This document shows, piece by piece, positions 8,407-47,340 of a stretch of 64,000 bases of DNA (positions within the stretch are counted from its first letter, which is position 1; each line of letters begins with the position of its first letter). Both the position numbers and the translations under genes were made by a program. The notes under the pieces were generated by a model. It saw only the letters and a list, made by a program, of their open reading frames with translations. It ran no database searches and was not told the DNA's origin. This DNA comes from Pomphorhynchus laevis. Lineage: Eukaryota; Acanthocephala; Palaeacanthocephala; Echinorhynchida; Pomphorhynchidae. The DNA is taken from positions 1 to 64,000 of the forward strand of contig WNNJ02000845.1 of the NCBI GenBank assembly GCA_012934845.2, read 5' to 3'.

Positions 8407-9000
8407 TTGCCACCCTCTTTATTATCATTATCCTCTATGTCTCCCGTCGTCAAACCAAATCCCTCCAAATCATCAACTGCCAGCTCTTCTATCGTGATCT
8501 CACCCACTCACGTCAGTCGTCCTCCTTTACGGAAGCGCTTTCCTTCTCGCGATCGTTGCGTCATTGTCACTAATATCACGCCTTCCAACTCCTTATCTCC
8601 ACAAGCACGTCTGGACCACGATGTTTCCACTTTCAGATCCATCCTCTCGTCTATTGTTCCTGCGGATGAACCATCCTTTTTCAAGGACATTTCCTGTCGC
8701 ATTCATCCGTCTAAACAAATCTTCTCAATCTAATCCTTCGCAGCCCCCTATCCTAAAAATCGTTTTCAAGCATCGCTCTCACGCGTCTTCTGTCCTCTCT
8801 CAACGATTTAAACTCATGTCATCTTCAATCACTCGAATTTTCCCCGATCGCATCCCTTCTGAAATCGCACAACTCGCTTCTGCCCGCATCGAAAAACGCC
8901 GTCGCAAGGAAAACGGCGAAACATCATTCTCCATCCGAAACATAAACGGAAATTTTCAAGTTGTCCACACCCGTCCAAAATTTCGATGGCGTTCCATCTC
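8407..9000 (+). pseudogene. family B ORF1 remnant
   Basis: The first frame (8407-8733) contains RDRCVIVTNI and the serine-rich leader; a shift moves to the frame 8564-9022, with PILKIVFKHRS, IFPDRIPSE and ENGETSFSIRN. This order resembles the RNA-binding C-terminal region of CR1-type ORF1 proteins (RRM-like core, then a basic tail). No zinc finger is left in this copy. Confidence 0.55.
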
Positions 9001-9027
9001 CCCTATGTGTCTTATCCACTAGACTCT

Positions 9028-10160
9028 TTCGTCACCACACACGGTTTCCACCTCGTCTTCAACACTAGATCTATTCTCAATAAATCCGATCTTATCCTCA
9101 ACTATTCACCAAGCAATCCATCGATCTCTTCTGCCTCAATGAATCCTGACATTCAGATTCCGACGACCTTTCCATTCGCCGTCTGCTCTCTGCCGGTTGC
9201 TCACTAGTCGAATCCGCCTGCCCCCTCAGCTTATACCATTCTAAATTCTCTAATCATAGCGGTATCGTCGCATTCGCGCGTCACCCCGCGTCTCTTCGCA
9301 TGATCAATCCCCCTTTAAGTCCTTGCTCTTTTGAATTGCTCTCTTGTCGTTATTCTAACCCGATCACGCTAGATCTCGCCATTGTATACCGTCCTGCTTC
9401 ATCAGCTCCTCCAGCCTTATTTTTAACGAACTCGCTGACCTCCTTTCTCATTGTTCTTTGTCCTCAATCCCTTCACTCGTTCTAGGCGACTTCAATATCC
9501 GCCTAGACTGCCCCTCTTCCACGGATTCCATCCGGTTCATCAACATTCTATCCAACTACAATTACAAACTAATCTCCACTGCCCCCACACATATACTTGG
9601 TGGGGCACTCGACATCATCGCTGTCCCCGATCATTTTGCTGCCTACACCTCACTGTCCATCTCTGATCCTGGTCTATCCGATCACTTTCTTATCACCCTT
9701 GATCTCACTCGCAACCACACCCCTCCTCACACACCTACAATCCTACGTCGCCCTTGGAGAAATCTTGACCTCTCCCTTCTCCGCTCTGCCTTACTCAAAT
9801 CATCTATATCATTACCCACAATAACATATTCATCTCCTCACGATCTCGCCTTTCTTTTCGACTCTGAACTCACATCCACTCTCGATATTCTCTTGCCCTT
9901 CAAATCTCACCCACACCAACGTTTGCACCGTGCCCCATGGTTTGACATCCAATGCATACTCTCAAAGCGTCGACTCCGTTATGCTTTTCGAGCCTATCAC
10001 CGCTCTCTCAGGCGTGATTTCCGCTCGATCACTCCGTCTTTCAGTGATTCCTATCTTGCTCTTCGCCGGTCTCATCTCAACCTACTACGTACCAAATGCA
10101 ACTCCTTCTGGCAGCATAAAATCATCACTTCATTCAACTCTAAGACTCTCTGACATACTT
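9028..10160 (+). pseudogene. family B ORF2 N-part: AP endonuclease
   Basis: An FNTRSILNKSDLIL start near 9060, a serine/glutamate catalytic region in another frame near 9130, then the open frame 9458-10153 with LVLGDFNIRLD (about 9475), LDIIAV (about 9605) and SDHFLITLD (about 9680), the three recognisable catalytic boxes of the LINE endonuclease. The linker has PWFD..C...K (about 9935). At least three frame breaks occur before 9458. Confidence 0.7.
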
Positions 10161-13724: not shown

Positions 13725-14698
13725 AATTAAAGCACATTTTAAAAAATATTGCAAGGAAATCGAAATTAATAAAACACTATTTCAGTATTAATTCTACAAA
13801 AGAATTTTTAGAACAGACAAAAGGAATAAATTTTCAAAATATAAATACATACGATTTTAGTACGCTTTATACAAATCTAGATTTAGTAGATATTACAGAT
13901 GCATTAGAAAAATTAATTAATCTTATATTCGGAAAAAGATATACATATATATGTTATAATAATTATAACGCCTATCTAACAAAAATTAAACCATCAAATA
14001 AATATAAATATATGGATAAAATTGAATTAATAGAATCCTTAAATATTTTGATAAATCAAAATTATTTAAAAGTAGGGACATCTTTATTTAGACAAGTAAA
14101 AGGTGTTCCATTGGGTGGTAATAGTAGCCCAATTATAGCTGACTTGTTTTTAAGCTTTATAGAATATGAATTTGTTCATTACTGCTTAAAAAATAAATCT
14201 AAATTATATAAAGATATGAAATATATGTTTCGATATATTGTTAATATATATGTATTTAATTCTAGCAATTTTTATTCAATGAGCGAACAAATTTATCCAG
14301 GTAGCCTCATTCTTAATAAAACCAATATTAATGATAAAGAAAGTATATATCTTGATATGATCATTAAATTAACATCAATTAAAACTACTTTTAATTTATA
14401 TCTTAAAGATGACATATTTAAATTTACAAGAAACATATTTTTGCATGAGCATTCATGCATACCATATAATATAAAATATAATACATTAAATAATGAAATT
14501 TTAAGAATTACAACAATATGTAATGATATTGGCTTTCTTCAAAATCATTTAAATAATTTAATAGATACATATTTTAAACTAGGTTACTATAAAAATAACA
14601 TCAAGCAGAAAATAGTAAAATATATAAATCAACACAATAATATAAAGAATAAATTTAAACTCTTAAGTGGCAAATTTTTATGGATGGATAATAAATAA
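13725..14698 (+). pseudogene. PLE-1 reverse transcriptase, catalytically dead
   Basis: The open frame runs from about 13775 to the TAA at 14696-14698 (first ATG 14012). RT blocks: TYDFSTLYTNLDLV (about 13849-13890, motif A), QVKGVPLGGNSSPIIADLF (about 14093-14150, motif B), FRYIVNIYVFN (about 14228-14260, motif C) and YLDMIIKLT. In PLE RTs motif C ends in DD; other copies here read YIDD, but this copy reads YIVN, so catalysis is lost although the frame is long. Compared with 23050-23090, about 8 bp are missing near 13770, which shifts the frame upstream. Confidence 0.8.
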
Positions 14699-14706
14699 TA
14701 TACTTT

Positions 14707-14857
14707 GCATTAGAATAAGATACTAGATAGTTATTTCAGAGGAAATACATCATTAGCATGTATTTGGCCCCGCTGCTATGTTGGGTAGAGGAGTTAGGGG
14801 CCGAAACCTGATAGCATAGCAGTTCCTACTGATGACCTCTTATTCTTATTATGATAC
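14707..14857 (+). ncRNA. hammerhead-ribozyme-like RNA, PLE-1 copy
   Basis: Core bases in order: outer stem II strand 14707-14720, AGAG 14738-14741, GAAA 14742-14745, stem III 14745-14750 with 14758-14763 around a 7-nt loop, unpaired U14764 (predicted cleavage after it), stem I GCTGCTATG 14772-14780 with CATAGCAGT 14815-14823, CTGATGA 14829-14835, CTCT 14837-14840, outer stem II 14843-14857. The topology leaves stem II open (type II). Oddities: one extra C between CTGATGA and stem II, and a weak stem I base. PLEs of other animals are known to carry hammerheads. Confidence 0.65.
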
Positions 14858-15074
14858 AACGTCTGTTATTTATTAGTCAATTCATAAAAATGACGTTTAT
14901 TTTAAATTTTATTTTTTATTTTTATTTTTTAACTTGATTAAAATTATAGAAAATCTAAAAACAATTATTAATTTTATTATTTAATTATTAAATTTTGATT
15001 TAGCATTATTATGTTTTGTTTATCTTATAATTATATAACAATACGTAGACTCAGTTAGCTGATTTAATTCATAT

Positions 15075-35501: not shown

Positions 35502-38330
35502 TCAAAATCTTCTCCTACTGTCAATATCGGATAGTGACATATTTTTCAAAATTGGGCAAGTGAAGATATGCAGGTTAGATGCGCATTCATTTTTGCAAAG
35601 AACACAAATGCACAAAGAGCACCGTGCATGTACTGGAATTCTAATAGCGCAGAATTTATCGTGATATCCATGGACAGATGCTCTCCAGATCAGCGGTCTT
35701 TTCCTTGCACAGGGTTCTCTCCATTTAGTCTGTAAGAATGCCGGAGTAAGATAAAATTCAGAATCCAATGACGTCGTCTTTCGAAAGAACATGTTCAGGT
35801 TAGTAGTAAATGATGCAGTGTGTTCAAGATTAAATGTTGAGCAGATGTATTTAGAGCAAGGTTCTAACGATGATAGTATCGCTATAACCGATGAAGAACA
35901 TTTTGGTGAGACTCCAACAATTCGCTTCACGAATCTCCATTGACACTTGTCCAACTGCTGAAAATTGAAGGGACTTAAATCCGACCAGATAACTGGCAAA
36001 GCATATGAAACTATGGGAAGCAGCATACTTCGAAAATATCGGAGGGCTCCTGAGAAAGATAAAGAACCTAAGTTTTTTGCATAAGAGGTTGCTACAACTA
36101 ACTTCGAGGATTTACGATGTAGGTGTTCAGTAAATGACCATTTCGACGAAAGTAATACTCCCAAATAATTGTAACTATTGCAGAATTCTAAATCTACATT
36201 GCCTATTCTCAGCATGTCACATCGACGCAAAGGTCCACCTAACCGAAATTTAAGGGCTTTCGATTTATTTACATTCACCGTCAACTGATTTGATAAACAA
36301 TAGGATGACAGAGCATCTAACGCACTTTGAGCGGATAAAAGATCTTTGGCTAATATTACTAGATCGTCGGCATAGAGGGTACAAGAGACTTCATTCGATG
36401 CATGACGAAGATGCATAGGCAAATCCATAACAAAAAAGGAAAATAATATAGGGCTGAGTGGATCTCCCTGTAAAACACCGCGATTAGCAAAAAAGAAATC
36501 AGAGGTGTTGATACCATCAGATACTTTAAGGCGATTAGGCTGAAGCACAGAATAAATAAGATACAAAAAGCGACCACTAACGGACACTCTGGTGGAAAGT
36601 TTATCAAGTAACAAAGAACGATTCACTGTGTCAAATGCTCGCTCAAAGTCAACAAAAGTAGCATACAACGGTCTATGATTAGCGAAACAATTGGTGACTT
36701 CGTCACGGACATGCTTTATTGCATCGGACGTTGACCTTTTCGGGCGGAATCCATACTGCTCCGTAGGTAAGAGATGCTCGCGAAACTTAATAAGGCGCAT
36801 ATACATTATATGAGTCAATAACTTATAACTGTGATTCAATATCGCAATCCCCCTGTACGAATCCAGTGAATCATAGTCACCTTTGCCCTTATGCAGGATC
36901 TTAATTACACCGTCGCGCCACGAAATCGGAAACGGATGACCTGCAAGAAGTAGATTGAAAAGTTCTGTCCAGTAGTCTATCAAAATATCGATAGTCGACT
37001 TTAACTGTTCTACGCATAATTGATCTAACCCGGCAGCTTTATGATCTTTTAAGATTGATAGGGATCTTACGACTTCAAACGTCGTAAAAGGTAAATTCAG
37101 AGGATCTGAACCGTATATTGAATTTATGCATGAAACTGAAGATAAACGTACAGGCATGTCTTCTAATATTGAATGGCGCAAAATAGATTGGAAGTGCGAT
37201 TTCCAATTTTCTATTTGAATCCTGGAATATGTTCCAATGTTAGCTTTCTTAAGTATCCACGGTGTCGACTCCGCCTTAGACAATTCCCGTCGTTCAATCT
37301 CTAAACGTCGTTCTCTACGATACATCGATACAAGTTTAACGTAAAGCCTACGCAAATCTACAAAATCTTTCCTTACCGTTAAATCGAACCGATAACTTTT
37401 ATTTAATTGAATTAAATGTTGCTGGAACTGTTTAAACCAAGCGGGTTTTACTAGGTATGAGTTTTTTTTGGAATAGTCGGATTCATATCTACAAGCCGAT
37501 AGAAGGGTGGAAATTACAGAAGTAATGCTGTTCCCCAGTTCTCCTGATCTAAGGAATTGAAAAGCTAGATTTATTTGACTATAATCAATTGCTGAAGTAC
37601 ATAATTTCCTGCTAGGTTGACGGGGCAAATCTATTGATTGTATGTTGCATATGCAATCGAAAATACACGAGACAGGTTTGTGTTTACGAACTAACGCCCA
37701 TTTTGAAGATAGTACTAGTCCTATATGTCTTACATGCACGTTAGTAAATATGATGTCTATACAGCTTTTACCTGTAGAAGATTCGTAGGACCAATTTTCA
37801 TTAGGGACGTATAACTTTAGATTTATAGACTTAAAGTAATTGACAAGAATTCGCAATTTTCCTGTGATTGGACTGGTGAATCTTGCATTAAAATCTCCTG
37901 CGATAATTATCGGGACTGTGCTGTTTAGAGTTGAAAGAAGCTGAGAAATTTCGTCAATTATATCTGCCGCGGTAAGTGTGGGTTTGAAATAGCATGCGAT
38001 AAAAGTGATGACAGGTGTTTCAAGCAGTATAGAATTCAGCAAATACCTACATTGCCAATCCCTGAAGGCCCTATTTAAACCTAAAATTATTCCACCCGCG
38101 GGGCGACCACGAATGCCCAATAAAGCAGGATTGTCAAATGTATAAAAACCAGGTAAAGAATAATTATTAGTAAACATGGTCTCTAATAGTACCACAACGT
38201 GAAAGGTATCGAACCAGGATTCAATACCTTGCTCGATCAAAGACGCCAAACCTTCCACATTAAATAGTAACAGTCTAAAAGACTTGTGGTGCTCACAAAC
38301 CTGACTACCACTTCTTGCAGAAGAGGATAG
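35502..38330 (-). CDS. family F ORF2: endonuclease-reverse transcriptase, open
   Basis: No ATG is needed near 38258: the frame is open upstream to the TGA at 38331-38333. Counting from GTG 38258: endonuclease E26 (LLETM), GDFN 121-124, CIDII 166-170 and H193, where the usual SDH reads RKH. RT: SYRGIAILN 468-475, FVDFERAFD 535-543, GVLQGDPLSP 593-602, YADD 628-631. The C-terminus has a cysteine/histidine cluster CSLCICVLCKNEC..H...C. Product: nicking endonuclease and RT for retrotransposition. The RT looks intact; the missing aspartate in SDH may weaken the nuclease. Confidence 0.85.
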   Translation of the reverse strand, partial: LSSSARSGSQVCEHHKSFRLLLFNVEGLASLIEQGIESWFDTFHVVVLLETMFTNNYSLPGFYTFDNPALLGIRGRPAGGIILGLNRAFRDWQCRYLLNSILLETPVITFIACYFKPTLTAADIIDEISQLLSTLNSTVPIIIAGDFNARFTSPITGKLRILVNYFKSINLKLYVPNENWSYESSTGKSCIDIIFTNVHVRHIGLVLSSKWALVRKHKPVSCIFDCICNIQSIDLPRQPSRKLCTSAIDYSQINLAFQFLRSGELGNSITSVISTLLSACRYESDYSKKNSYLVKPAWFKQFQQHLIQLNKSYRFDLTVRKDFVDLRRLYVKLVSMYRRERRLEIERRELSKAESTPWILKKANIGTYSRIQIENWKSHFQSILRHSILEDMPVRLSSVSCINSIYGSDPLNLPFTTFEVVRSLSILKDHKAAGLDQLCVEQLKSTIDILIDYWTELFNLLLAGHPFPISWRDGVIKILHKGKGDYDSLDSYRGIAILNHSYKLLTHIMYMRLIKFREHLLPTEQYGFRPKRSTSDAIKHVRDEVTNCFANHRPLYATFVDFERAFDTVNRSLLLDKLSTRVSVSGRFLYLIYSVLQPNRLKVSDGINTSDFFFANRGVLQGDPLSPILFSFFVMDLPMHLRHASNEVSCTLYADDLVILAKDLLSAQSALDALSSYCLSNQLTVNVNKSKALKFRLGGPLRRCDMLRIGNVDLEFCNSYNYLGVLLSSKWSFTEHLHRKSSKLVVATSYAKNLGSLSFSGALRYFRSMLLPIVSYALPVIWSDLSPFNFQQLDKCQWRFVKRIVGVSPKCSSSVIAILSSLEPCSKYICSTFNLEHTASFTTNLNMFFRKTTSLDSEFYLTPAFLQTKWREPCARKRPLIWRASVHGYHDKFCAIRIPVHARCSLCICVLCKNECASNLHIFTCPILKNMSLSDIDSRRRF

Positions 38331-46829: not shown

Positions 46830-47340
46830 ATACTATTAAGCAAAATTTTTTAGATGGATTATAAACAATATGCTTTGCATTAGTATAAGGTTCTAGACAC
46901 TCAAATTTCATCATATGAAATACGACATTAGCGCGTATTTGACCCCGCTGCTATGTTGGGTTGAGAAATAGGGGCCGATACCTTATAACATAGCAGTTCC
47001 TCCTGTGAGATGATTAAAGAGATGATTGAGGTCATTCTATTTGTTTCTACGCGATAGGCGATTATTAAGTCCGCGAGCAGTAGAGGAATATCTACGATTT
47101 TCAAGAGAAAATGCCGATCCGGTATTTTTTAAATATTCGTTCTCGTAATTTAAGAAATATTATGAATGTAATACGGCTATGCATTTTAATTTGAAGCAAT
47201 TTTTATATAAATTTGAAGCTATCTTTCTGATGACCTCCTAATCTTATTCTGATACAACGCCTGTCATTTATTAGACAATTCATAAAAATTGACTTTATTA
47301 GTTTCAATTTATAAATTTTAACTTAAAATTTAATTTTTAA
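46830..47340 (+). mobile_element. PLE 3' end inside the satellite, PLE-5
   Basis: Starts at the RT C-terminal relic (about 46850), then the hammerhead-like RNA split by about 220 bp (46871-47245), then the start of the shared 3' region. Extreme 5' truncation leaves little more than the ribozyme and tail. Confidence 0.65.
46871..47245 (+). ncRNA. hammerhead-like RNA, PLE-5, interrupted
   Basis: GAAA 46917-46920; stem III TACG/CGTA (a change at one pair matched by a change on the other strand compared with PLE-1); stem I extends to CTGCTATGTT/AACATAGCAG; CTGATGA 47227-47233 and outer stem II AATCTTATTCTGATAC follow after about 220 bp of extra sequence (about 47008-47226). Confidence 0.55.

Follow-up and report, generated by a model that had tools for sequence, protein, structure and literature searches.

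Cervera and De la Pena are reported to have described type I hammerhead ribozymes in canonical Penelope-like elements (PLEs) in 2014. The Naiad PLEs, presented in 2021 by Craig and co-workers, reportedly combine an N-terminal GIY-YIG, a CxC pair, a C-terminal RT and tandem copies with pseudo-LTRs, as does the element in our window, by which we mean the whole 64,000-base stretch of Pomphorhynchus laevis DNA analysed here. The abstract of that work is said to state that Naiads 'lack canonical hammerhead ribozyme motifs', and a ribozyme in this branch would matter for that reason. Canonical PLEs carry the endonuclease at the C-terminus, and their type I hammerheads differ in strand order from the motif described below.

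The type I hammerhead of a lizard PLE lies in the pseudo-LTR region of tandem copies, as here (PMC11167929). Type II (GSC) hammerheads, very common in eubacteria, share their core letters with the family in the window and often contain tertiary pseudoknots; unlike in that family, loops close their stems I and III, and the core stems do not cross each other (Perreault et al. 2011, PMC3088659). Non-circularly permuted hammerheads were published in 2023, mainly from metatranscriptomes, with type CSG known from two similar sequences and with cleavage established for the SGC and CSG forms (Eckert et al., PMC10085705). These are the closest relatives of the motif in the window: both have the same core letters, crossing stems I-III, the C-S-G cyclic order and a short linker from the stem I 5' strand to the stem II 3' strand. 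Eckert et al. assumed CUGAnGA and its adjacent pairs to be consecutive, and in the forms that they published CUGAnGA is never separated from the stem strands on its two sides (PMC10085705); the window family has its stem II 5' strand at the other end, behind a hairpin. The window family thus departs from type CSG, in which CUGANGA stands 0-1 nt before stem II.

The window lies on contig C3136 in the 249-Mb host genome. The region at 14707-14857 sits 3' of the stop of an RT frame (14699) and belongs to the 3' pseudo-LTR of a Naiad-type PLE. Judged from its letters and from comparison with related elements, this tail probably specifies a hammerhead ribozyme whose strands are non-circularly permuted, with the cyclic core order C-S-G and a split C block. 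The features of the element and of the proposed fold are as follows.

13727-14698, + strand: C-terminal RT part of the Naiad-type element, an open frame (frame list; intact relative L047)
14713-14719, + strand: outer helix 5' strand (GAATAAG), pairs with 14839-14845; part of a longer inverted repeat
14739-14742, + strand: P0 5' strand (GAGG), pairs with 14836-14839; identical letters in L196, weak GGG/CCC only in L195
14743-14765, + strand: hairpin H, directly 5' of the stem II 5' strand; 8 bp long both here and in L196, 9 bp including a G-U in L195
14766-14771, + strand: stem II 5' strand (GGCCCC), first base G10.1 (five-element comparison)
14773-14780, + strand: stem III distal extension 3' strand (CTGCTATG), pairs with 14815-14822 (8 bp)
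14781-14786, + strand: stem III 3' strand (TTGGGT), last base U16.1 (five-element comparison)
14787-14788, + strand: predicted cleavage site, H17 = A14787, cut before G14788 (prediction from the fold)
14788-14795, + strand: stem I 5' strand (GAGGAGTT); the stem reaches 8 bp in one copy at L044
14797-14802, + strand: stem II 3' strand (GGGGCC), last base C11.1 (five-element comparison)
14803-14806, + strand: core strand GAAA (G12, A13, A14, A15.1; copy conservation)
14806-14811, + strand: stem III 5' strand (ACCTGA; five-element comparison)
14815-14822, + strand: stem III distal extension 5' strand (CATAGCAG; pairing counts)
14821-14828, + strand: stem I 3' strand; A14828 mismatches G14788 in the window copy (14.7-kb copy against the L044 copy)
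14829-14835, + strand: core strand CTGATGA, C3 to A9 (sequence, copy conservation, five-element comparison)
14836-14845, + strand: P0 3' strand (CCTC), which merges into the 3' strand of the outer helix (CTTATTC; sequence, inverted repeat)
14846-15069, + strand: remainder of the 3' pseudo-LTR; element copies stop at about 15069 (copy comparison)

Read from 5' to 3', the predicted RNA would run through P0, hairpin H, the stem II 5' strand, the stem III 3' strand, the U-H site, the stem I 5' strand, the stem II 3' strand, GAAA, the stem III 5' strand, the stem I 3' strand, CUGAUGA and P0 again. The C block would be split by P0 and H, which are placed between A9 and G10.1. The stems of the family are GGCCCC/GGGGCC followed by GAAA (II), ACC/GGU with the 8-bp extension (III) and GAGGA/UCCUC beside CUGAUGA (I); the window copy has one mismatch at the stem I base. 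A copy at L044 has these stems II and III, stem I GAGGAGTT/AGTTCCTC before CUGAUGA and U-A at the site, and the copy at 21.1 kb has just three contiguous stem II pairs. All three stems are correctly joined to the core, in the split forms with the stem II 5' strand attached by pairing and not by continuation from A9. We are not aware of any other hammerhead in which inserted helices separate A9 from stem II.

We infer that the RNA folds in this way, cleaves itself, does so at this site and by this serves the life cycle of the element. Transcripts of tandem arrays would be cut between A14787 and G14788 of each unit, giving one-unit RNAs of about 3.5 kb; the unit-length RNA would most likely extend from the equivalent of 14788 to the next equivalent of 14787. 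With such a cut in every unit, the two halves of the split core would therefore come to lie at opposite ends of the unit RNA.

The assignment of the element to Naiads rests on its protein and on its tandem copies. An intact relative (L047:5479-8205) has a single 908-aa frame, in which alignment with Pfam-recognised relatives places GIY-YIG at the N-terminus and the RT at the C-terminus. A Pfam search with the whole 908-aa protein recovered no family at E<=1, and RVT_1 was scored on its C-terminal 654 residues. Between endonuclease and RT lies the CxC pair, with invariant C333 and C335 (ECNC in the host protein), which we take to be a Naiad marker; the combination of a GIY-YIG N-terminus, this pair and a C-terminal RT is reportedly the layout presented by Craig and co-workers in 2021. 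Tandem copies with pseudo-LTRs are seen at L044, where three units are spaced by 3,549 and 3,523 bases and the tail of one unit continues into the 5' UTR of the next. The family is abundant: a 35-mer from the tail has 9,674 places in the genome (4,753 + 4,921) within 3 mismatches, and the reversed control has none. Outside this genome, no Naiads were confirmed in viral contigs, in plasmids or in the first genome scan with one protein. The window also holds a 942-aa stop-free frame at 35502-38330 (-), whose endonuclease and RT letters resemble those of a non-LTR retrotransposon, and elsewhere in the genome a Naiad copy lies within an array whose units measure about 158 bases (L041:1-6297 and 8583-9901).

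A profile search for Naiad-like proteins yielded seven loci (L193-L199) in records labelled as bacterial MAGs or symbionts, which we take to be eukaryotic contaminants of these records. Their proteins share 27-34% identity with the host protein, L198 and L199 being short matches. Four of the seven, L193-L196, have the hammerhead pattern; L197, L198 and L199 gave no match even in a relaxed scan, and all seven were without an Rfam match at E<=3. Among relatives of the L195 protein, many (P0016-P0032 and others) combine the retrotransposon protein with a ubiquitin hydrolase domain (PF00443).

The layout of the window recurs in L195 and L196 in other letters, with a hairpin, a helix, a crossing helix, GAAA and CTGATGA. 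The stems of L195 are GCCAC/GTGGC (II), ACCC/GGGT (III) and GAGAAT/ATTCTC (I) with the site GUA, and those of L196 are GACGCC/GGCGTC, ATACG/CGTAT and GAGGAT/ATCCTC with AUU. L193 and L194 have the plain CSG order, stem II following CUGANGA at 1 nt in L193 and 0 nt in L194; both read CUGAAGA and have GUC at the site. Stems II, III and I are GGCCT/AGGCC, ACAAAGTAAT/ATTACTTTGT and TGAGAT/ATCTCA in L193, and GCCCG/CGGGC, a 13-bp helix and TATA/TATA in L194. The host family and L196 have the same cyclic order, with the RNA opened between A9 and stem II, CUGAUGA last and then P0. L195 fits the split form with a 5-bp stem II and, alternatively, a plain SGC form with 3 bp, and its P0 is weak. All three split forms (host, L195 and L196) have an 8-9 bp hairpin directly before stem II, which was not demanded by the descriptor used in the scans.

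At about 30% protein identity, all five elements retain CUGANGA, GAAA, the pairs A15.1-U16.1 and G10.1-C11.1, and an H17 other than G, and GAAA directly follows stem II in each of them. Stem I measures 4-8 bp, stem II 5-6 bp and stem III 4-13 bp; the 10 bp of stem III in L193 and the 13 bp in L194 exceed what the descriptor demands. When the four innermost pairs of each stem are compared, pairing is possible in every one of the 60 cells, and both sides have changed in 9 of the 12 pairs, the three fixed ones being G10.1-C11.1, C10.3-G11.3 and A15.1-U16.1. Pairing inside the descriptor's minimum lengths follows from the way the loci were chosen; the two-sided changes do not. Stems I-III thus covary between the five elements.

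The descriptor, hammerhead rules in the C-S-G order, was written after the host family, L193, L195 and L196 had been seen, and L194 was found later. By default it gave one match each in L193, L195 and L196, three of the seven distant loci. Dinucleotide shuffles gave 3 matches in 42.8 Mb and separate shuffles 0 in 7.98 Mb, and at this rate the seven loci should hold about 0.005 chance matches. The relaxed scan, the shuffles of which gave 10 matches in 4.28 Mb, added L194; when stems as long as in L193 and L194 were demanded, shuffles gave 0 matches in 28.6 Mb. The descriptor matched 86 of 192 host loci (296,690 bases, many without the whole tail). All 88 host matches are flanked by tail letters, and none has the SGC order, in which the stem II 5' strand directly follows CUGANGA. 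The window's own copies escape the descriptor because of single mismatches.

A sequence-only reading of this region had proposed a type II hammerhead with stem II open, in which GAAA at 14742 is a core strand, hairpin H is stem III, stem I has a short base and cleavage follows U14764. Much of what it described is real. The hairpin after the RT stop is a perfect 8-bp helix with a 7-nt loop, the bracketing inverted repeat is present, and CTGATGA at 14829-14835 is retained as a core strand in our model, which departs from the earlier one in its remaining two core strands, in all three stems and in where it places the cut (14787/14788 instead of 14764). The reported exchange of TACA/TGTA for TACG/CGTA also holds: the hairpin pair A41-T51 is paired in 90 of 96 distinct copies (82.2 expected), with 12 double changes, and it is the sole pair among those counted with a clear pairing excess inside the host genome. 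The same fold had been assigned to six PLE 3' ends, and CTGATGA is in place in four of them (14.7, 21.1, 41.5 minus and 47.5 kb). At 46.9 kb its place is taken by CTGTGAG followed by some 220 bases of unrelated sequence (46960-47227), the tail with CTGATGA resuming at 47227, and at 24.0 kb there is CTTATGA and part of the hairpin is missing.

The copies of the host genome are shared ground for both models. From 175 candidate tails, 36 truncated or too diverged ones were dropped, leaving 139, of which 96 are distinct. All core letters are intact in 72 of the 96 under the C-S-G model (CUGANGA, GAAA, U16.1 and H17 not G) and in 71 under the type II model, and conservation within the genome does not choose between them. 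In the GAAA strand at 14803-14806, A13 and A14 are kept in 96/96, G12 in 90/96 and A15.1 in 94/96, and H17 is A in 57 copies, C in 29, T in 7 and G in 3. Covariation of stems I-III of the C-S-G model was not seen inside the genome, pairing being as expected, because these stems are either too conserved or too decayed. As a separate observation, CTGATGA occurs 89,003 times genome-wide against 16,863 for the reversed word, partly in an array with 197-base spacing (G000:C2:58351-59736). A plain long helix between CTGATGA and an upstream TCATCAG, attractive on single copies, was rejected, since it shows no pairing excess and one position is broken in 36 of 96. An HDV-like double pseudoknot was considered because the two inner helices cross, one of them starting right after hairpin H; by eye it has no P3 or P4 partner, and it has no Rfam match.

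The hammerhead core of the sequence-only reading is supported, and its type II topology, notwithstanding the intact core letters and the covarying hairpin pair, is highly improbable. It fails because the first pair of stem I is rarely possible (in 2 of 95 distinct copies, and impossible in 93, with U.C in 83), because its GAAA at 14742-14745 runs into hairpin H, and because L196 lacks that GAAA, reading GAGG-ATGAGTGA there. Pairing of the hairpin extends through the supposed catalytic AAA and UUU, and an additional C follows CTGATGA. A type II descriptor with stems of >=4 bp had no match in the window or the seven distant loci, so that a type II (GSC) order with a paired stem I base was not found. 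The Rfam searches that the earlier reading had suggested did not favour it: in the window no family reached its gathering score, no hammerhead family had E<=10 in 14600-14950, and of 12,262 genome candidates for RF02276 (type II), none of the 66 that were scored reached E<=10. Type I hammerheads (RF00163) do occur outside the window in tandem units of about 295 bases (e.g. L031:1300-1750 and L037:1380-1700), with 62 of 68 over the cut-off among the matches listed and 73 of 40,608 candidates scored; at L037 one of these units has broken up a Naiad copy.

Two further explanations were weighed. A conserved pseudoknotted RNA that binds an element protein or guides reverse transcription, with hammerhead-like letters and no activity, would account for the conservation of hairpin H and P0 beyond the needs of the core, and mutants of the lizard PLE hammerhead left insertion in vitro unaffected (PMC11167929). 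It would also agree with the 5' ends of insertions, which do not mark the site. Of 80 junctions 79 were mapped (L121, at a contig end, was omitted and L165 carries a flag; L167/L170 and L168/L169 have common flanks and may be duplicates), and 26 of these are solitary insertion ends. None of the 26 lies at the predicted site (ref 187), six are upstream of 187, none falls on the type II model's site (ref 164), and five are at ref 219-232; insertion ends were accordingly rejected as a cleavage footprint. L070, L128 and L129, with different flanks, start alike at the first base of CTGCTATG (ref 172), and L114 and L142 are locally rearranged copies, one inverted, with breakpoints close to where hairpin H meets stem II. 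Against a non-catalytic RNA, core letters and adjacent pairs obey hammerhead rules in five distant elements and in two openings of one cyclic order, and we regard this explanation as unlikely. A permuted hammerhead that was once active and has lost its activity in the young copies of this genome is less probable still; in most of these the site is U-A and not U-C, and the window copy has the stem I mismatch, but UA is a permitted U-H site and every core letter is kept in 72 of 96 distinct copies.

The split C-S-G hammerhead remains our preferred reading, and this corrected structure, a predicted Naiad hammerhead that is both split and non-circularly permuted, is more unusual than the type II proposal. 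Among the titles and abstract openings listed in searches of open-licence literature, none ties Naiads to a hammerhead. The strand order is one rarely seen in nature, and it would place a self-cutting RNA in the tails of an abundant retrotransposon. On balance we favour a wider, clade-level reading: the Naiad clade would carry non-circularly permuted C-S-G hammerheads, one lineage of which was opened inside the C block, between A9 and stem II, by insertion of two helices, giving a topology outside the six described orders, with thousands of copies in a single eukaryotic genome. In PLEs with an N-terminal endonuclease, the 'missing' hammerhead would then have escaped searches that took the classical strand orders for granted. 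If this is true, a large clade of retrotransposons would be a natural home for the non-circular permutations, even the CUGANGA block could be split, and the same catalytic core would be present in PLEs with an N-terminal and in those with a C-terminal endonuclease.
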